From a virus, in the IMG/VR virus record IMGVR_UViG_3300043395_002542, positions 1 to 64,000 of that record: DNA of 64,000 nucleotides; one strand, given 5' to 3'. Position 1 is the first letter of the stretch; each line of letters opens with the position of its first letter. Made by a program: the position numbers and the translations under genes. Positions 4,102-60,797 of the stretch are shown here, piece by piece. The notes below the pieces were generated by a model. The model made no database searches and was not told the DNA's origin. It was given only the letters and a program-made list of their open reading frames with translations.

Positions 4102-4353
4102 ATGACCGAATCGGCTGAGAGCGCGGACCCGATGGTCTTCGCGTGCATGTTGCACAAGTTTGAAAACGAGCTTTCTGCAGAAGCTTTTTCAAGAACAAGC
4201 GCGATACGAGAGCATATAGTCAAATTATCAATTCGCAAGCTTGCAGCAGCGAGAGACAAAAAGCGCGCTGCATTTTACACGATCTGCACAGAGCAACAGC
4301 GACTTGCAATAGAAGGAATTAAGATTATCAATCAGGATTTGCAAGCAAGCTGA
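4102..4353 (+). CDS. Small helical protein of unknown function
   Basis: 83 residues, mostly helical, with a basic centre (KLSIRKLAAARDKKRAAFY). It ends at 4353 in a TGATG overlap with the winged-helix replication protein, so the two are translationally coupled. Possibly a small partner in replication; no motif shows this. Confidence 0.55.
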   Translation: MTESAESADPMVFACMLHKFENELSAEAFSRTSAIREHIVKLSIRKLAAARDKKRAAFYTICTEQQRLAIEGIKIINQDLQAS

Positions 4354-5189
4354 TGTCTGACACTTCAAAAAGAGCAACGCTTTCTCGTTCTCGCTTCGTA
4401 CAAGTTCCTTCTGATTTTCTCGCGCTTCTTGTTAAAAACAAAGAATATGCGTGGGTTTGGATGGTGCTTTGGGAAAAAGCTGGTGCATCAAGAGAGGCTT
4501 GGATTTCAGTCGCAGGTCTTGTAGATGCGTGCAAGATGAATATTCATACGATTAAAAACGCGCTGAAATGGCTTGTAGATAACGGTTACGTCAAAAGAAT
4601 TTCACGCCCTGGCGAGGTTAGTCACTACGAACTGAGCCTTGAAAAACGCTGGGCGAAAGATGAGGATGAGAGTCCCGAAAGGTGCATACCTGGGGCTCCC
4701 AAGAGCCCTAGGGCTCCATCGGACCTGGGGCCTCCAGGAGCCCCACCTACCTGGGGCCTCCAAGAGCCCCACGAACCTCAGAAAACAAAAACCTCAGAAA
4801 AAACCCCCTATATCCCCCACAAGCCATCACAGCCCGCTGCACGCTCTCAGACCCCTCCAGGAGCCTCTGTACGGCGTTCTGAGCAGCTTCAGCTGCCCGC
4901 ATACGCTGAGCCCGTCAGAACGGCCCTGGAGGCGTGGCTGGCGCAGAGCAGGAAGAAGCATCGAAGCAGCAAGCGACAGCTCTCGCCGAGCGACTTGCGC
5001 GGCATCAAGGCAGCGCACGAACTGGGGGTGCTTGCGGAGTATGCAGAACTTGCATCGGAGTCAACGTGGATGTCTCTGGGCTTCTCAGGACATGTTGATG
5101 TTTTGCAAAAGCTGCAACGCGATTCAAAGTTTCATGGTGGCGCAGTGAAAAAGGAAATTAAAGAAATCTCAGATGAAGCGTTTTTATAA
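4353..5189 (+). CDS. Winged-helix replication protein (initiator/loader type)
   Basis: 278 residues. Residues 1-100 look like a winged-helix domain: FVQVPSDFLALLVKNKEYAWVWMVLWEKAG, then SVAGLVDACKMNIHTIKNALKWLVDNGYVKRI, which is the recognition helix and wing. A long Pro-rich low-complexity linker (about 110-170) follows, then a C-terminal helical domain. This architecture, just ahead of a DnaB-type helicase, is typical of phage replication initiators or helicase loaders. The start overlaps the previous stop by one base. The exact role (origin binding or helicase loading) is inferred from position. Confidence 0.7.
   Translation: MSDTSKRATLSRSRFVQVPSDFLALLVKNKEYAWVWMVLWEKAGASREAWISVAGLVDACKMNIHTIKNALKWLVDNGYVKRISRPGEVSHYELSLEKRWAKDEDESPERCIPGAPKSPRAPSDLGPPGAPPTWGLQEPHEPQKTKTSEKTPYIPHKPSQPAARSQTPPGASVRRSEQLQLPAYAEPVRTALEAWLAQSRKKHRSSKRQLSPSDLRGIKAAHELGVLAEYAELASESTWMSLGFSGHVDVLQKLQRDSKFHGGAVKKEIKEISDEAFL
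4684..4772 (+). repeat. Imperfect GC-rich short repeats in the linker of the replication protein
   Basis: Four imperfect copies of a motif like CTGGGGCTCCAAGAGCCC, in which CTGGGGC/GCTCC and GAGCCC blocks alternate. They encode the Pro-rich linker (PGAPKSPRAP, PPGAPPTWG). Base composition here differs sharply from the flanking AT-richer codons. Confidence 0.55.
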
Positions 5190-5354
5190 GTGCAAGATAA
5201 TAGCGATAAACTTTTGCTTCAATCTCTGATCACGCAATGGAGCGAGATCAAAACTCTGCAACACTTGCTTTCTACAACAGATGACGACGAACTCTTACTC
5301 GCAATTTTCAAGGAATGTGAAAAGCGATTCTGCGACAAAGGAAAATCTGCTTGA
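5190..5354 (+). CDS. Possible 54-residue helical protein between initiator and helicase
   Basis: GTG at 5190 directly follows the TAA of the replication protein and opens 54 codons (starts MQDNSDKLLLQSLITQW, ends FCDKGKSA). The composition is protein-like and amphipathic-helical. It overlaps the start of the helicase frame by 38 to 74 bases, depending on the helicase start. No good ribosome-binding site is present, so translation would depend on coupling to the upstream stop. Confidence 0.45.
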   Translation: MQDNSDKLLLQSLITQWSEIKTLQHLLSTTDDDELLLAIFKECEKRFCDKGKSA

Positions 5355-6792
5355 ACAGCTAACTACATGGAACTGTGACGTTTTTGAACGCATATTTCTA
5401 GGATGGTGCTTGAACAGTTTGCATTCATCGCAGCTCGCATCACTTCTGCTAACTGTTGATAAAAGTTGGTTTGTTGATCGCGCACGCAAACTTGTTTATA
5501 CGGCAACTGTTAATTGCATTCTTGAAGCGTCTGCACAAAGAGATTCATTCATATCAACAATCACTGTTGAAAATGCAGCAGAAAATCTTGTAGATACTTT
5601 TGATGACAGCTTTGAAAAACAGTGGGCGGAAAATACAGTTCTTGATTGCTCGTCTCTCGCAAACAAATTTGTTATCGGGCGCGAGCTGATCGTCTCAGAA
5701 ATCCTGCCCAGATGGAAAGTTTCTCTTGGGCGCCCGCGTGTAAAAGAAATTCTCGACTCGACTTTACAAGAACTGAGTCACGAAAGCTTTGATCCTGGCG
5801 CCCCGGAAAAAGTCACTGACTTACTTGCAAAAGCAAATCATGAATGGTTCAAATCAAACTATGGCGTTGCAGATGATCACGAACTCACAGAAGACGAATT
5901 CTTCGATCAGATTCTCGTTCCGCTACCGGATGAAGAGGTTTCTGTTTCGACGGGCCTTGAAGCGTTTGATCAATTCGCAGCTGGTGGAATTGCAAAAGAA
6001 TCAGTTGGCGAAGGAGAAAAGAAAGCTATTAATACTGAAGCCGGGCGCATTATTACTGTTGCTGCTCGCCCTGGATGTGGCAAAACAGCAATGCTGACTT
6101 CACTTGTGCATGGCATTTCACAGGAAGGCGGCAAAGGTGTGATCTACACACTTGAAGTTCCCATTGCGCAAATTTATGCACGCGCAACGGCCATTCATGA
6201 CTTCAAGTCTCAAGTCACGCAAAAGAACGCAATTGTTGATGGTTTGCGCACGACTCAATTCGGTCGCCGCAGTTTTTCTGAGGCTCAACGCAATCGAATG
6301 CTCAGCTACAAAGGCAAGACGCTACCTGGGGTTTTGGTCAAGGAAAAGCTTCGTTCCATTGATCAAATTGTTGCTAATGCGCGCTTGCTTAAGCGTCGTG
6401 ATCCTGAATTGCGTTTCATCGCCATTGATCACCTGGGATGTATTTCTCACCCGCAATCGGATAAACCCTATCTCGCAATCAGAGATATTATGGAAAAATT
6501 GCTGCAGCTTGTAAATGAAATCAAGATCGACGTTATCTTGCTATGTCAGCTGAACAGAAATCTCGCTGCACGATCCGATAAGCGCCCAACGCTTACAGAT
6601 TTGCGCGATAGCGGATCAATCGAGGAATTCAGTCACATTGTTATCGGGCTATACAAGGAAGAGGACAACGATCAGCAGGAAACGCAAGAGATTGAGATTC
6701 ATGCGCTGAAGAACAGAAATGGCCCTACGGGAATGAAAAAAGCAATGTTCTACAAGCGCTATTCAATCATCGCAAACGCAACCATTCAATGA
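5281..6792 (+). CDS. dnaB: DnaB-like replicative helicase
   Basis: 503 residues, normal length for the family. The N-terminal half is a helical primase-interaction region. The RecA-like motor has Walker A AARPGCGKT at 261-269, Walker B FIAIDHLG near 379-386, the sensor LLCQLNR near 420 and the motif LTDLRDSGSIEEFSHIVIGLYKEE near 441-464. It unwinds duplex DNA ahead of the fork as a hexamer. The ATG at 5281 is in-frame but overlaps the small gene 5190-5354; a GTG at 5317, after AAGGAA, is an alternative. The next gene starts with an ATGA overlap. The helicase call is secure; the start is not. Confidence 0.9.
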   Translation: MTTNSYSQFSRNVKSDSATKENLLEQLTTWNCDVFERIFLGWCLNSLHSSQLASLLLTVDKSWFVDRARKLVYTATVNCILEASAQRDSFISTITVENAAENLVDTFDDSFEKQWAENTVLDCSSLANKFVIGRELIVSEILPRWKVSLGRPRVKEILDSTLQELSHESFDPGAPEKVTDLLAKANHEWFKSNYGVADDHELTEDEFFDQILVPLPDEEVSVSTGLEAFDQFAAGGIAKESVGEGEKKAINTEAGRIITVAARPGCGKTAMLTSLVHGISQEGGKGVIYTLEVPIAQIYARATAIHDFKSQVTQKNAIVDGLRTTQFGRRSFSEAQRNRMLSYKGKTLPGVLVKEKLRSIDQIVANARLLKRRDPELRFIAIDHLGCISHPQSDKPYLAIRDIMEKLLQLVNEIKIDVILLCQLNRNLAARSDKRPTLTDLRDSGSIEEFSHIVIGLYKEEDNDQQETQEIEIHALKNRNGPTGMKKAMFYKRYSIIANATIQ

Positions 6793-18984: not shown

Positions 18985-19022
18985 GTGCTTGCAACTTGTT
19001 GTTGCTCGCACAAGCTTTTTTA

Positions 19023-19051
19023 TTGCGCCCGAGCTTTTCGTGTGATACTAT
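19023..19051 (+). promoter_or_regulatory. Promoter upstream of the small terminase gene
   Basis: -35 TTGCGC (19023-19028), 17-base spacer, -10 TACTAT (19046-19051). No AAATTTA box and no stem-loop follow, so it belongs to a different class from the small-gene promoters. Start codon at 19075. Confidence 0.6.
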
Positions 19052-19074
19052 CTTTTCACGCACTAACTCTTTTT

Positions 19075-19716
19075 ATGAGCGATCTTAACTTCTCTGATCA
19101 AGAAATCTTCTCTGATGATGATTCTGATTTACAAGATCTAAATGTTGAAGAATCGAATCTATTCGCGCAAGACTCTAACGCAATTTTGCATGAACATCTT
19201 AATACAAAAAGTTTTTTTATTAGACAGGGTGGTGCAATTAATGAGAGTCAAAAAGAATTTGAATTGTTCGATTTCTACGCGAAGTGCGGTGGTGGTAGAT
19301 CTTACAATTATATCAGCGCAATATTTAATTTGCAAGAGTCGAGAGTAGCTCAGATTGCAAAGAAAAATAATTGGGCACAACGTGTAGCTGATTATGATCG
19401 TAATGAGTTTGCAAATAAATTACAGCTTGAGAAAGATGCAAGAGCAATTGAACATAAGCGCAAACTAGAAGAATATCGCTCTCAACAAGAATTTCTAGGG
19501 CGTGCTCTTTCTCATGATGCTGCAAAACTTGCGCAACTAGCTAATCGTACTTTAGATGAGTATCTAAATTCTGATCGCGCTTTAGATATGCGTGACATTC
19601 CTAGCATTTTGAACAGCGCTGCAAAAGTTGCTGAAGTTGCAAAAAGTTTGCAATCTAATGCTCTGGGCGTTGATCAACTACTTATTGCACTTGAAGAAGC
19701 AGATTTCGATGAGTAA
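19075..19716 (+). CDS. terS: Terminase small subunit-like DNA-binding protein
   Basis: 213 residues. After an acidic N-terminus comes FELFDFYAKCGGGRSYNYIS, then VAQIAKKNNWAQRVADYDR, a helix-turn-helix arrangement typical of phage small terminase subunits (ALxLYLELGPGRSLxxVA...WxxRxxxYD). The remainder is a coiled, helical oligomerisation region. Small terminase recognises the packaging site and recruits the large subunit. It lies 2.1 kb upstream of the large subunit, separated by the iteron array. The domain call is fair; the packaging role is inferred from family and position. Confidence 0.65.
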   Translation: MSDLNFSDQEIFSDDDSDLQDLNVEESNLFAQDSNAILHEHLNTKSFFIRQGGAINESQKEFELFDFYAKCGGGRSYNYISAIFNLQESRVAQIAKKNNWAQRVADYDRNEFANKLQLEKDARAIEHKRKLEEYRSQQEFLGRALSHDAAKLAQLANRTLDEYLNSDRALDMRDIPSILNSAAKVAEVAKSLQSNALGVDQLLIALEEADFDE

Positions 19717-19911: not shown

Positions 19912-20343
19912 ATGCCGAATTTTGCAGATCAGCGCGGAAAAGAAATGTTCAAAAACTTAATTGTTAAACGAAAAATACTAGGACTGACAACTTTTGACCT
20001 TGCGCTTTTTGGTTATTTGGCATTCATTTCTCGCAGCAGAGTTATTATTTCTGTCACCACAGCAGAACTTGCAGAGATAGTAGAAGAGCCCTATCAGAAA
20101 GTTTCTGCATCTATTAAAAAATTCATTCATCTAGATTTATTAAAGAAAGTGAAATATAAAAACCATTCAGGCCTAATGATTTCACCATTGATAATTAACA
20201 ATGGCGGGATGAAAACAAAGACATTCAAGGTAAAATTATGGCAGGGCGAACTTAACATTCAACAACCAAAAGAAATTAAGTTTGAGCGAATTTATCCCAT
20301 TCAACGCAAATCTAAAAATGATGAAAATTTGCATTCATCTTAA
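19912..20343 (+). CDS. Winged-helix protein (RepL/regulator-like)
   Basis: 143 residues. Segments LGLTTFDLALFGYLAFISRS and SVTTAELAEIVEEPYQKVSASIKKFIHLDLLKKV form a winged helix-turn-helix like those of plasmid RepL-type replication proteins and phage regulators. A perfect seven-base inverted repeat lies in its leader (19862-19868 and 19895-19901), and an iteron array begins inside its last codons. It could bind these iterons as an origin, centromere or packaging-site protein. The function is inferred from position. Confidence 0.6.
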   Translation: MPNFADQRGKEMFKNLIVKRKILGLTTFDLALFGYLAFISRSRVIISVTTAELAEIVEEPYQKVSASIKKFIHLDLLKKVKYKNHSGLMISPLIINNGGMKTKTFKVKLWQGELNIQQPKEIKFERIYPIQRKSKNDENLHSS

Positions 20344-20603
20344 AATTTGCATTCATCTATAAAATTTCATTCATTCATAAATTTTGCATTCATCTATAAA
20401 TTTGCATTCATCTAAAGTTTCGCATTCGCATAAATTTCACAGACGCGTAAATTTTATAAGTTGCATAAATTTTGCACTTGCGCAAATTTTGCAAGCGTGC
20501 TAAAATTTCACAGATGCTAAAATTTTACAATGTATAAAAATTATTGCAATTACAAAAGTTTTATAAATGCAAAAATTTTACAACTTACAAAAATTATAAA
20601 TGC
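20324..20603 (+). repeat. AT-rich iteron array, about 16 units of 15-19 bases
   Basis: Direct repeats each starting with AAA(A)TTT and then (in the first five units) GCATTCATCTAT. Units begin at 20324, 20342, 20361, 20379, 20398, 20414, 20432, 20449, 20467, 20484, 20502, 20519, 20536, 20554, 20571 and 20589. They decay in similarity from left to right. The first unit lies in the coding end of the winged-helix gene. The remainder of 20604-20852 is non-coding. Confidence 0.85.
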
Positions 20604-20644
20604 AAACTGAATCTGTAAAGTATAAATAAATTTTGCAATGTGCT

Positions 20645-20686
20645 AAATGTTAAACAGCAATCGTTAAATGTTAAATAGTAATCGTT
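20645..20686 (+). repeat. 21-base tandem repeat, two copies
   Basis: 20645-20665 and 20666-20686, identical except for two positions (AAATGTTAAA-C/T-AG-C/T-AATCGTT). It follows the iteron array directly and is AT-rich. Confidence 0.8.
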
Positions 20687-20852
20687 GTTTTATACTTTAC
20701 ACTTTACTGATTCTATAATTGATGCAAACTAGCTAACAGTGTGACAGCTTGCTAACTTGCACAGCGTGGTGTGGATGGGTCCCGATCGGTGCTGTAGGAT
20801 TGGCGCAAGCCGGAAGGAACCCGGCCCCCAAACAATCCGATAGGACCCACAG

Positions 20853-21371
20853 ATGACCCGCACCAACAAAGCCGCCGCCGCTTCCCCCGCTCCCGAGAAC
20901 GGCAACAACCGCCGTCCCCTGCCCACCGGCAAAGCCGGCCCGGTCCGCACCGTGAAGGCAGAGTCCGGCGCTGATCTCACTGACGACGCCATCGCCGCGC
21001 TACTGGCCAACGCGATGGTGGAGAAGGTCAAGCCGGCCCGCGCCGCCGCCAGCCCCCGCGTTACCCTGACCGCCGAGGCGGCCGCCACGTTCGCCGCGAT
21101 GGGGTGGAACGCCCCCCGCGTTGACCACACCCACACGTGGAAGCACAACGCCGAGCAGACCCGCTTCAACGAGTGCAAGGGATCCCGCCCTTACACCGTC
21201 GCCGTGCAGCTCCTGCAGTCCGGCCCGCTCACCCTTGAGACCCTCGGCCGTATCTGGCTCCGCAACGGCAACGAGCCTGCCAAGCTGAACGCCATTGCCA
21301 AGCAGCTTGCCAACCGTGCCGGCTGCCCCGTGCAGCAGATCGGCGACCGTTTGCAGCTGGTGACCGCCTGA
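20853..21371 (+). CDS. GC-rich gene of unknown function, host-like composition
   Basis: 172 residues. The Ala/Pro-rich disordered N-terminal 60 residues are followed by VTLTAEAAATFAAMGWNAP and a C-terminal winged-helix-like segment (QLLQSGPLTLETLGRIWLRN...LANRAGCPVQQIGDRLQLV). Nearly all codons end in G or C, in sharp contrast to the AT-rich flanks, so it is likely a recent acquisition from a GC-rich host or phage. The ribosome-binding site is AGGACC. Possibly a DNA-binding protein. Confidence 0.65.
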   Translation: MTRTNKAAAASPAPENGNNRRPLPTGKAGPVRTVKAESGADLTDDAIAALLANAMVEKVKPARAAASPRVTLTAEAAATFAAMGWNAPRVDHTHTWKHNAEQTRFNECKGSRPYTVAVQLLQSGPLTLETLGRIWLRNGNEPAKLNAIAKQLANRAGCPVQQIGDRLQLVTA

Positions 21372-21436
21372 CGCATCACGACCACGACCACCAGGGGCCG
21401 CACCCCGGCCCCTCAACCACACACCGACAGGACCCC

Positions 21437-21625
21437 ATGCCTCGCATCCTCTCAGCCATCGCAGCCGCCACCCTTACCGTTACCCTCAGTGCCGGCATGA
21501 TCGAAACCACCCGCACCATTGACCGCGCCCTCGCATGGCACGCCTGCCTGACCGAACAACAACGGGCCGGCCTTTATAAAGAGTCGCACGCTATCTGTAG
21601 AGGCAAACTACAAAACAACGTCTAA
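21437..21625 (+). CDS. Small secreted or membrane-anchored protein
   Basis: 62 residues with an N-terminal hydrophobic segment (ILSAIAAATLTVTLSAGMI) that reads as a signal peptide or membrane anchor, followed by a short polar domain with two cysteines. Ribosome-binding site CAGGACCCC like its upstream neighbour; both belong to the GC-rich island. Function unknown. Confidence 0.55.
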   Translation: MPRILSAIAAATLTVTLSAGMIETTRTIDRALAWHACLTEQQRAGLYKESHAICRGKLQNNV

Positions 21626-21640
21626 CCGTTAAAAGTTAGA

Positions 21641-21663
21641 ACCCCCCGAAACTTACGGGGGGT
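21641..21663. other. Perfect hairpin ACCCCCCG / CGGGGGGT
   Basis: Eight perfect pairs with a seven-base loop. No T tract on the plus strand and only a weak one on the minus strand. It could be a terminator of the GC-rich island or part of the packaging/cos region upstream of the large terminase. The sequence alone does not decide. Confidence 0.5.
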
Positions 21664-21761
21664 GACCACCTCGCCAGGAGGGGGGACACTACCCGTCAGC
21701 ACAAATTTTTTTTGGCTATTCTGTGACCGAATACAAAATGTAACTGCATTTCTTTTTCTAT

Positions 21762-21857
21762 ATGAACCCAACACTTCAAGAAATAATAACTGTAATGACG
21801 ATCTATGTAATTGTATGCTGCATTGCCGTGTATATTATGTCCAAAATACTCGATTGA
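21762..21857 (+). CDS. Possible 31-residue membrane peptide
   Basis: ATG at 21762, reading MNPTLQEIITVMTIYVIVCC and ending KILD: almost a single transmembrane helix. It stops four bases before the GTG of the large terminase. No ribosome-binding site, so only tentative. Confidence 0.35.
   Translation: MNPTLQEIITVMTIYVIVCCIAVYIMSKILD
21811..21838 (+). promoter_or_regulatory. Promoter candidate for the structural operon
   Basis: -35 TTGTAT (21811-21816), 16-base spacer, -10 TATTAT (21833-21838). The -10 is one base off consensus. Transcription would start near 21845, 17 bases before the terminase GTG. Confidence 0.5.
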
Positions 21858-21861
21858 CTCA

Positions 21862-23259
21862 GTGCCCGCAAAATCTCGCAGTTCGCGCTACGCCGATCGC
21901 GCTGCACTAAATTCGCTCGGGCTGTTTCAAGACGTTTCTGCCCTACGCAAACTTGCTAAAAAGAATAATACTGCTTTTGATACAAAAGAATGTGAATTAC
22001 GCATAATTAACGATCTACTCCCACACCAGTTCAACTTCGTAACAGACTTTACCCATCGCCTCGTTGCACTATGCGGCGGATTTGGTAGCGGGAAAAGCTT
22101 TGCTGCCGTAGCAAAAGCAATATTGCTCTGCTTCAAAAGTCAGGGCTTCACGCACCTATTCCTAGAACCCACAATCCCTCTCCTCCGAGACGTTGCAATC
22201 CCAGCCTGGCAAAACGTGCTTGATAAATACGGCATCCCTTATGAATTTCGTACTTCGCCCCTTCCTGTCTTTACCTTAAAACTCCCGAACGGCGACACAC
22301 CTGTACTTCTACGTTCATTTGAAAACTACAATCGCCTCATCGGCGTTAATGCTGCAAGTATGACTGTTGACGAAATTGATACAGTTTCGACGCAAACTGC
22401 TGAAGCAGCAATTATCAAATTACAAGGGCGCGTTCGTGTGGGCAACTGCCCTCAACTTTGTTTTGCATCTACGCCCGAGGGACACAAAGCGCTTTATAAC
22501 ATGTTCGTGCGTGAAGCATCAGATGAAAAAGCACTTTATAAAGCACGCACTGCAGATAACCCCTTCCTTGATCCGGGCTTTATTGAAAACCTGCGTGCTT
22601 CATATCCCGCCAACCTGATTGAAGCCTATCTGAACGGCGAATTTGTTAATCTCGCACAAGCAACTGTATTTTACGAATTCGATCGTCAAAAACATTGCAC
22701 AAGTGTATTCCATCCAGAGCCCAACGAACTTATTGTCTTCGGCGCAGACTTCAATATTGGCAAGAGTCAATCTTGTTACGCCGTTGTACGTCCGGGACCA
22801 ATGGGCCAAATGCTTCATATTTTCGCCGAACACACCTGTCGCACAACTTTTGATCTCGTCGAGCACATCAAACGTCAATACCCTCGTCAACTCGCCAATG
22901 GCATGATCACCTGCTACCCAGATGCCAGCGGCAGTCACGCCAGCACCAGCTCAACGGAAAGCGATCACGACATTCTGCGCGGCGCGGGCATCAAAGTCGT
23001 TGCCGAACGTCGCAACCCACCCGTTGCAGAGACTATTGCTCACGCAAACTTGCATATTCACTCGGGCACAGTGCTTGTAAATCCAACAACATGCTACGAA
23101 ACCATGCAAAGTCTTGAAAACTGGGGGTATGACGAGAGCTACAAGCCAATGAAGGGCGGGAAAAATGATCTTTCGCACGCCGGAGACTCCCTTCGTTATC
23201 TCGTTTGGCAGACGATGCCACGGGCAATTGCGCAAACAAATCGTCCTCGCTGGAGATAG
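21862..23259 (+). CDS. terL: Terminase large subunit
   Basis: 465 residues from the GTG at 21862. The ATPase has Walker A GGFGSGKS at 72-79 and Walker B MTVDEID at 167-173 (Asp170, Glu171). The nuclease domain begins VFGADFNIGKS with Asp296 as a likely metal ligand, and a final acidic motif lies at DLSHAGDSLRYL. It pumps DNA into the prohead and cuts it to length. A frame extension upstream (TTG 21811) would run through the promoter candidate. Followed by the portal gene, the usual order. Confidence 0.92.
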   Translation: MPAKSRSSRYADRAALNSLGLFQDVSALRKLAKKNNTAFDTKECELRIINDLLPHQFNFVTDFTHRLVALCGGFGSGKSFAAVAKAILLCFKSQGFTHLFLEPTIPLLRDVAIPAWQNVLDKYGIPYEFRTSPLPVFTLKLPNGDTPVLLRSFENYNRLIGVNAASMTVDEIDTVSTQTAEAAIIKLQGRVRVGNCPQLCFASTPEGHKALYNMFVREASDEKALYKARTADNPFLDPGFIENLRASYPANLIEAYLNGEFVNLAQATVFYEFDRQKHCTSVFHPEPNELIVFGADFNIGKSQSCYAVVRPGPMGQMLHIFAEHTCRTTFDLVEHIKRQYPRQLANGMITCYPDASGSHASTSSTESDHDILRGAGIKVVAERRNPPVAETIAHANLHIHSGTVLVNPTTCYETMQSLENWGYDESYKPMKGGKNDLSHAGDSLRYLVWQTMPRAIAQTNRPRWR

Positions 23260-59330: not shown

Positions 59331-60218
59331 TCAGAGGTTGAGTTTGTTTTTAACTGAAAGAAGCAGGGCGCACTTTTGTATGCCCTTTCTTTCCAGTGCC
59401 TGCAATTTCCCCTTTGATAGTCCAGTCGTCTGCGACAGTTCAAGCCATGATGTTGGCTTTTCTCTGTGTCGCTCAAGAATGATATATCTTGTTTGCTCGT
59501 CAACAAATTCATCAAGTGCGTGATAAAGCGCTTCAATGTTAATCCTTTCCTCTGCATCATCAATTGTATTCGAGTTGCGCGGATCTGCGACTACATCAAT
59601 GATTGCGCTTGAATCATCATTGTCAGTGCATTTTCTATCAAGACTGAAGGCGTTTCTGGGCGCATCAAGAAGTTTTCTGATGTCTTCTAAATCAATGCCA
59701 ATTTCGTCTGATATTTCTTGAAGCGACGGTTCGCGCCCGAGTGATTGAGCAAGCCTTTCCCCCGCCCTCCTGATTTGATGCAGGGCGTCGTAGGTGCCGA
59801 TCGGGAGCCTGATCGTTGAGTCTGTCGCCTGCATCGCCCTCTGGATTGCCTGTCTGATCCACCAGTAGGCGTAGGTGCTCATGGCATAGCCACGAGTTGG
59901 ATCGAACTTCTCGACAGCTCGCGCCAAACCGATATTCCCCTCTTGAATCAAATCCATGAAATCAAGAGTTTTTGCAAGTCTTGTGTATTTACGTGCGATC
60001 GTAACCACAAGGCGAAGATTGCAGTTAATAAATTTTGCTCTCGCCCTGATTCCTATTTTTTCTATTCGCAGTTCTTCTTCAGAGTATTCAGAGCGATCTT
60101 TTTCCTGTATTGCAATCCACGCCTGTATCTGCGTCCCAAGCATGACCTCCTGCGTTTTCGTCAGCAGGGGGTAGCGCCCGATCTCATTGAGGTAAGCCTG
60201 GATCGTGTCGCTCGCCAT
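59331..60218 (-). CDS. Sigma-70 family RNA polymerase sigma factor
   Basis: 295 residues from the ATG at 60218, the size of primary-like (group 2) cyanobacterial sigma factors. Region 1.2 (DTIQAYLNEIGRYPLLT), region 2 (LRLVVTIARKYT...FDPTRGYAMSTYAYWWIRQA) and region 3 are canonical. Region 4.2 is divergent: SKGKLQALERKGIQK replaces the usual SRERVRQIExxALxK that reads the -35 box. It would redirect host polymerase to phage promoters. Two upstream in-frame starts exist but overlap the small gene 60184-60378. Confidence 0.9.
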   Translation of the reverse strand: MASDTIQAYLNEIGRYPLLTKTQEVMLGTQIQAWIAIQEKDRSEYSEEELRIEKIGIRARAKFINCNLRLVVTIARKYTRLAKTLDFMDLIQEGNIGLARAVEKFDPTRGYAMSTYAYWWIRQAIQRAMQATDSTIRLPIGTYDALHQIRRAGERLAQSLGREPSLQEISDEIGIDLEDIRKLLDAPRNAFSLDRKCTDNDDSSAIIDVVADPRNSNTIDDAEERINIEALYHALDEFVDEQTRYIILERHREKPTSWLELSQTTGLSKGKLQALERKGIQKCALLLSVKNKLNL

Positions 60219-60378
60219 TTTGCGCTTGGGAACCTGTAGCAGCTTGCATGTAGTGCAGTTTCCAGAGAGCCTGCCACTCTTGCGCATGATCCCACACCAT
60301 GCCCAATCCGTAAACGCGCCATTTCCACTGATTTTCTTCGCATGGCGCTTGAAGCCATGGCTCGTTACGCTCAGTCAT
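60184..60378 (-). CDS. Small Trp-rich protein of unknown function
   Basis: 64 residues, MTERNEPWLQAPCEENQWKW then YGLGMVWDHAQEWQALWKLH. The composition is unusual but protein-like; similar tiny Trp-rich proteins occur in picocyanobacteria. It overlaps the sigma start by 35 bases. Moderate confidence because no ribosome-binding site is visible. Confidence 0.45.
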   Translation of the reverse strand: MTERNEPWLQAPCEENQWKWRVYGLGMVWDHAQEWQALWKLHYMQAATGSQAQNGERHDPGLPQ

Positions 60379-60393
60379 AACTACTGTGTTTCG

Positions 60394-60660
60394 ATGTCTC
60401 ATTTAACGTATCGCCCGGAGGATCAGTTTCAGGAGAGACTCAATGCAGAACGCCTTAAGGAACTGTTCACGAAGCATGATCATCAGGGTTTACTTGACTT
60501 TGCGTTACTGTTAAACCATCAAGCGTCTTTCAATAACAGCAGGGCGTACTGGGCAATTTGCGAAGCAGCAAAGAATATGAGCGAAGAATTCAGCCTTGAC
60601 AAGTACATGTCAATGGCGTCTGATGTACTAAAAGATGAAAATACCCGAGGCGGGATTTGA
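60394..60660 (+). CDS. Small helical protein of unknown function
   Basis: 88 residues from the ATG at 60394. QERLNAERLKELFTKHDHQG, helical throughout. It is the only plus-strand gene in the right arm and its last codons overlap the tRNA-Leu gene on the other strand. Start codons of this and the minus-strand gene are 15 bases apart. Confidence 0.55.
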   Translation: MSHLTYRPEDQFQERLNAERLKELFTKHDHQGLLDFALLLNHQASFNNSRAYWAICEAAKNMSEEFSLDKYMSMASDVLKDENTRGGI

Positions 60661-60715
60661 ACCCGCGCTTGAGCGATTTTAAGTCGCTTGCCTCGTTCCG
60701 CTGGGCTACTCGGGC
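60642..60715 (-). tRNA. tRNA-Leu (anticodon UAA), short variable loop
   Basis: 74 nt, folds as acceptor GCCCGAG/CTCGGGT (one G-U), D-loop with GG, anticodon stem AGCGA/TCGCT with loop CTTAAAA (U33, anticodon UAA), T arm GCGGG-TTCAAAT-CCCGC, discriminator A. It reads UUA. The variable loop is only five bases, whereas leucine tRNAs normally have a long variable arm. Confidence 0.85.
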
Positions 60716-60721
60716 TTGTGA

Positions 60722-60793
60722 TAGGTCCGCCGAGAATTGAACTCGGTTCTGCCGCTTATAAGGCGACGGCCTTAACCAATAGGCGACGGACCC
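60722..60793 (-). tRNA. tRNA-Ile (anticodon UAU)
   Basis: 72 nt, acceptor GGGTCCG/CGGACCT, anticodon stem GTCGC/GCGGC with loop CTTATAA (anticodon UAU, reads AUA), T arm CCGAG-TTCAATT-CTCGG, discriminator A. Six bases from the tRNA-Leu gene. Both serve AT-rich codons that would be rare in a GC-rich host. Confidence 0.85.
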
Positions 60794-60797
60794 ATCT

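Follow-up and report, generated by a model that had tools for sequence, protein, structure and literature searches.

A one-strand CATTCA array between the terminase genes of a virus record: a candidate packaging-initiation region

What is the function of an array of short direct repeats that stands between the two terminase genes of a virus? Few phages have a known site of packaging initiation, and such sites can rarely be recognised from sequence. The array discussed here lies in a 64,000-nucleotide stretch (the window), which forms part of the 69,161-bp IMG/VR virus record IMGVR_UViG_3300043395_002542. The original prediction for this locus offered three functions, namely a replication origin, a partition site or a packaging signal, with the product of the adjacent winged-helix gene as the binder. 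Among these the packaging signal is the best supported.

The host is probably a picocyanobacterium, an assignment that follows from relatedness alone. The closest matches of the large terminase (TerL) include the phages KBS-S-2A, S-H1 and MED4-184, and those of the small terminase (TerS) are cyanophages; the assignment is weak because the best-scoring TerL matches also include Salmonella phages at 40%. Elsewhere the window carries a gene for a phage RNA polymerase sigma factor (59331-60287, minus strand; 34-58% conserved and also present in distant array-bearing lineages), adjoined by two tRNA genes, Leu(taa) and Ile(tat), at 60642-60794 on the minus strand.

The array matches its prediction in count and extent. 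Tandem Repeats Finder (TRF) places it at 20324-20606 (predicted, 20324-20603) with periods of 17-18 and ~35. At period 18 its autocorrelation reaches 0.58, against at most 0.48 at any period from 8 to 59 in 2000 Markov shuffles. It resolves into 16 tandem units of 16-19 bp in the same direction. Near-identical first units and later drift had also been described correctly: units 1, 2, 4 and 5 are alike (AAAATTTGCATTCATCTAT), and from ~20416 the later units have diverged and no longer carry CATTCA, though they keep an A/T-rich rhythm of 17-19 bp. The accompanying statement that every unit starts with AAATTT needs correction: 12 units contain an exact AAATTT, and those at 20416, 20537, 20555 and 20589 lack it. 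As had been noted too, the array begins inside the end of the winged-helix gene, unit 1 forming its last codons (...ENLHSS and stop, GAAAATTTGCATTCATCTTAA), and it separates the terminase genes (Table 1).

Table 1. Features of the window that bear on the array
Feature	Position	Strand	Evidence
O-like replication initiator, apart from the array	4353..5189	+	phrog_270 E=3.8e-11
26-bp tandem repeats (x2.2) in the initiator gene, candidate lambda-type origin	4723..4778	+	TRF
DnaB-like helicase	5281..6792	+	DnaB_C E=1.7e-39
Small terminase TerS, likely start ATG 19075	18985..19716	+	phrog_6299 E=2.4e-10; clade homologues 44-90% identical
RepL/TubR-like winged-helix gene, last codons = array unit 1	19912..20343	+	AF2, Pfam RepL in relatives, TubR profile match
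Six dispersed CATTCA sites in the winged-helix gene (20021, 20124, 20164, 20222, 20256, 20298)	20021..20303	+	site positions
CATTCA-bearing iterons, consensus AAAATTTGCATTCATCTA, 17-19 bp	20324..20428	+	repeat analysis
Degenerate A/T-rich iterons without CATTCA, 17-19 bp rhythm	20429..20606	+	repeat analysis
13-bp perfect inverted repeat TGTAAAGTATAAA/TTTATACTTTACA around two 21-bp direct repeats	20614..20701	.	similar blocks in relatives
G+C-rich ORF in the variable TerS-TerL segment	20853..21371	+	ORF list; contents differ between relatives
Large terminase TerL	21811..23259	+	Terminase_6N E=2.4e-11; phrog_2 E=4.8e-34

Just 3' of the array, a pair of 21-bp direct repeats at 20644-20685 (TAAATGTTAAACAGCAATCGT) belongs to a second repeat family (TAAATGTTAAACAGYAATCGT), of which relatives have up to several copies and which adjoins a conserved inverted repeat (TTTATACTTT). 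The interval between TerS and TerL, which in the window takes in 20700-21810, is variable cargo there and in relatives, mostly of ~2-4 kb and of ~14 kb in the record G314; in it a G+C-rich (60-70%) gene directly follows a very A/T-rich stretch. A peak of cumulative GC skew at the array in several genomes was set aside, as a C-rich gene follows.

Which part of the array is conserved? Across six long related records, two hexamers alone, CATTCA and ATTCAT, show enrichment at the locus in every one; for AAATTT this holds in three. It is CATTCA (in extended form AAAWTYGCATTCA), always on one strand, that is deeply conserved, rather than AAATTT. A search for the same array in related phages, proposed with the original prediction, found a forward CATTCA cluster 3' of a homologous TerS gene in 26 of 26 loci. 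Each holds 5-25 copies within 1.5 kb, with ~0.5 expected per locus and 0-3 on the opposite strand; the loci are non-independent, yet they span winged-helix types only 18-29% identical to the window protein. Elsewhere in the long related genomes the hexamer is at background level. Unit sequences vary between phages and are alike inside one phage, as expected of tandem duplication and homogenisation.

These sites are not confined to the tandem units. Counting unit 1, the winged-helix gene of the window contains seven CATTCA where 2.5 are expected (P=0.001, synonymous-codon shuffle), and the same shuffle gives an in-gene excess with P<0.03 in nine of ten relatives. An excess over the synonymous-codon expectation points to selection on the nucleic acid, beyond selection on the protein alone. 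Forward enrichment is restricted to the upstream side, over ~600 bp in the clade and ~2 kb in distant lineages, and forward copies are nearly absent for kilobases downstream of the arrays. Between 0.3 and 8 kb downstream, the clade genomes hold 2 forward copies and 26 reverse complements, a difference of uncertain significance among related genomes.

Is the winged-helix protein the partner of this conserved core? In all clade loci that were examined, its gene precedes the array. The AF2 model (pLDDT 78) consists of an HTH and a wing with a confident core and a disordered tail, and Foldseek returned generic winged-helix matches only. The RepL-like label that the protein had been given is borne out at the family level, where Pfam RepL matches 5 of 16 members (best E=3e-6); the window protein alone falls below every cut-off and has no RepL match. 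Among solved structures (PDB) the family profile matches TubR best (E=1e-4), and DnaD_N and replication-initiation PHROG matches occur among family members. Judged by these profiles, the window protein is a RepL/TubR-like DNA-binding protein. Homologues were found neither in cultured phages and plasmids nor in 292 cyanobacterial genomes, the genome search having been run without a positive control. As the shared binder of the array, the role originally proposed for it, the protein is probably the wrong candidate, because arrays with the same core occur in eight contigs without its gene and because the motif remains the same across winged-helix sequences that diverge to 18-29% identity. In these eight, out of ten array-bearing contigs, the winged-helix profile was unmatched at E<=1; they are fragments of 9-35 kb, and the gene may lie elsewhere in the whole phages. 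As far as these contigs extend, the array is independent of the winged-helix gene.

A RepL-like gene ending in iterons invites the reading as an origin. In a lambda-type origin the iterons lie within or beside the initiator gene O, an arrangement that this genome has at its O-like initiator gene and not at the array. In five of five genomes (the window, G004, G005, G006 and G007) an initiator gene beside DnaB carries internal tandem repeats, of 26 bp x2.2 in the window and of 23 bp x3, 31 bp x2, 16 bp x4.5 and 15 bp x2.7 in the others. Repeats and initiators vary together, as they do for lambda O, and the repeats are likely to be lambda-type origins. Since these five genomes have separate initiators with iterons of their own, the terminase array is unlikely to be the main origin, and this part of the original prediction is disfavoured. 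A second, RepL-type origin could still be imagined, perhaps one used in a late or rolling-circle phase, at which the winged-helix initiator would bind the iterons that end its own gene and melt the A/T-rich part. RepL-type origins of Firmicute plasmids (PF05732) similarly combine a small winged-helix protein with repeats at the 3' end of its gene, and the constant position of the gene before the array in the clade, the RepL (E=3e-6), DnaD_N and replication-initiation matches of its family and the A/T-rich DNA alongside iterons that start inside the rep gene all agree with such an origin. We nevertheless regard it as rather unlikely: unlike in the plasmids, the window protein is below the RepL cut-off, arrays also exist in eight contigs lacking any winged-helix gene, CATTCA is constant though the winged-helix proteins differ strongly, and independent initiators with candidate origins are at hand by DnaB. 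Conspicuous iterons next to a RepL-like gene, then, need not mark the main origin.

The match to TubR raises partition, the second of the predicted functions. TubRC (type III partition) combines a winged-helix fold with direct repeats alongside (PMC5016525), the family profile matches TubR first (E=1e-4), and the winged helix modelled by AF2 is adaptor-like. The motor is missing from this picture: in seven records there is no tubulin/TubZ (PF00091), no ParA (PF13614) above cut-off (fragments only, inside DnaB-like ORFs of G005 and G006) and no tyrosine integrase, which argues against partition and against a plasmid-like prophage. The repeats also follow the gene, and in TubRC they precede it. 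A centromere-like site of the TubR/tubC type is therefore highly improbable.

Arrays are also found beyond the clade. A protein-blind DNA scan of viral sequences for three GCATTCA at iteron spacing, with the A-rich part left outside the pattern, returned iteron arrays in other phage lineages that share the core AAAWTYGCATTCA. In distant contigs they precede, by 3-5 kb, a TerL with 35-41% identity to that of the window. In L161, L170, L177, L214 and L215 the array comes directly after a TerS-like HTH gene, without a winged-helix gene, and in L214 and L215 it begins within 7 bp of the stop codon. The TerS-like label in this distant lineage rests on architecture and position, not on a family match, and the protein is barely comparable with the clade TerS. 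In L120, L179 and L142 the array follows a gene for a PD-(D/E)XK-type exonuclease, with a TerS-like gene beside TerL 3-4 kb further on. In the 86-kb G314 the group of TerS, winged-helix gene and array is intact, and TerL is ~14 kb away. Cultured relatives, whose TerS is 22-26% identical, have adjacent TerS and TerL genes and no array, and KBS-S-2A, S-H1, MED4-184, S-CBS2, S-CRES1/3, CL131 and PSS2 contain no CATTCA cluster.

Several by-products of these searches were set apart. Many matches of the first viral pattern scan were discarded as coding repeats (collagen-like GIQG), and short perfect repeats were also returned. A perfect 10-bp tandem repeat (GCATTCAACA) in the 12-18 kb contigs L116, L119, L122, L134, L138, L151, L166, L171 and L174 is apparently unrelated to the terminase arrays. 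Fur/Zur-box-like palindromes (TGAGAATCRTTCTCA) are repeated just 3' of the CATTCA arrays in L120, L179, L170 and L177. A role in host genomes was rejected: triple TYGCATTCA gave 32 matches in 84,980 genomes, mostly short perfect repeats and none with TerS, winged-helix or TerL homologues nearby. An RNA element was likewise rejected, Rfam matching two tRNAs only, and seemingly frequent contig ends near TerS are explained by the selection of short contigs.

Could the motif be read in passing rather than bound by TerS? An element with a direction, which a moving enzyme or a host factor would read and which might for example be a Chi-like signal close to a packaging end, would account for the strict one-strandedness of CATTCA, for its spread in the distant lineages (~1.5 forward copies per kb over ~2 kb upstream, none in 55 kb downstream), for the exonuclease gene next to the array in L120, L179 and L142 and for a core that is conserved across unrelated adjacent genes. 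Cyanobacterial genomes argue against it: TYGCATTCA is rare and strand-balanced in nine of them (14-54 each; the host may not be included), and AAAWTYGCATTCA is rare and dispersed in 59, extended forms having been counted rather than the bare 6-mer. The tandem, helical-scale spacing moreover suggests a bound double-stranded array, so that we consider a directional element unlikely. An operator or autoregulatory array, serving the winged-helix gene or the variable G+C-rich gene downstream, is quite unlikely as well. The clade array does lie between these two genes, with the conserved TTTATACTTT inverted-repeat block downstream; the distant-lineage arrays, however, are at 3' ends, with a plus-strand gene before and minus-strand genes after, and a plus-strand promoter scan was not above shuffles. 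A bidirectional terminator or promoter at the array was rejected, the scans being near shuffle level.

We arrive at the packaging signal and propose, with a probability of roughly 45%, that the array forms the core of a pac-type region for packaging initiation, with the small terminase as the protein that recognises it. The case begins with position: the array lies at the terminase genes, either between TerS and TerL or, in L120, L179 and L142, 3-5 kb from the pair, and the one-strand cluster 3' of TerS recurs in all 26 loci, its two hexamers being the sole ones enriched in all six long records. TerS, TerL, portal and MCP are conserved between genomes while the O-like/DnaB and winged-helix genes are replaced or diverged, and the array is kept alongside the former, so it goes with the packaging module. 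The distant lineage in which it adjoins a TerS-like HTH gene, the cohesion of TerS, winged-helix gene and array in G314 despite the remote TerL, and the existence of separate lambda-type origins point the same way. G006 and G007 circularise by end overlaps of 127 and 33 bp, as expected of circularly permuted genomes and compatible with headful packaging, although the overlaps may be assembly k-mers; the window record has no end overlap. The original prediction of a packaging signal thus leads, and its choice of binder is probably wrong.

Some observations argue against a pac site. The array follows an exonuclease gene and not the TerS-like gene in three distant contigs, the cultured relatives do without it, and a shared recognition sequence is surprising for two TerS proteins that are barely comparable. 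The small terminase of SF6/SPP1 has no sequence-specific affinity for its pac repeats (PMC4737164).

If the array is a pac region, the same-strand CATTCA copies (AAAWTYGCATTCA in the array proper) would be contacted by a ring of TerS HTH domains. TerS, encoded just upstream, would by this contact load TerL on concatemeric DNA for a putative cleavage at the array and determine in which direction a circularly permuted headful series runs. Bending or flexibility may come from the decaying half, which is rich in A/T. The winged-helix gene, placed between TerS and the array, would have been added in this clade specifically, and its product may also bind the region, for example to time or regulate packaging.

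A broader proposal, which we hold more tentatively, is that the one-strand AAAWTYGCATTCA array is a packaging or end-processing signal shared by several cyanophage-like lineages. The DNA signal would be kept while its neighbours (two barely comparable TerS types, RepL-like winged helices, an exonuclease) are exchanged, and its sites would have spread one-sidedly into upstream coding sequence under protein-independent selection. If the array is indeed a packaging-initiation site, it illustrates how the site that is recognised can outlast changes in the genes around it. A simple DNA pattern would then also locate pac in uncultured cyanophages, with direction and termini that are predictable and testable from reads.

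How does the array compare with known packaging sites? The pac site of bacteriophage P1 likewise has a short hexamer that is repeated several times around the small terminase gene, in part within coding sequence; its hexamer and copy number are different, and its sites lie inside the terminase gene itself. SPP1 pac, with direct repeats at terS, is a precedent (PMC4737164). It spans promoters and the start of terS, whereas the array described here stands on the 3' side of terS, with a winged-helix gene inserted between them. Its one-strand hexamer core is conserved and common to distant phages, and its cleavage site is putative. The features in common with SPP1/SF6 are direct repeats at the small terminase locus, an HTH small terminase and, possibly, circular permutation (PMC4737164).
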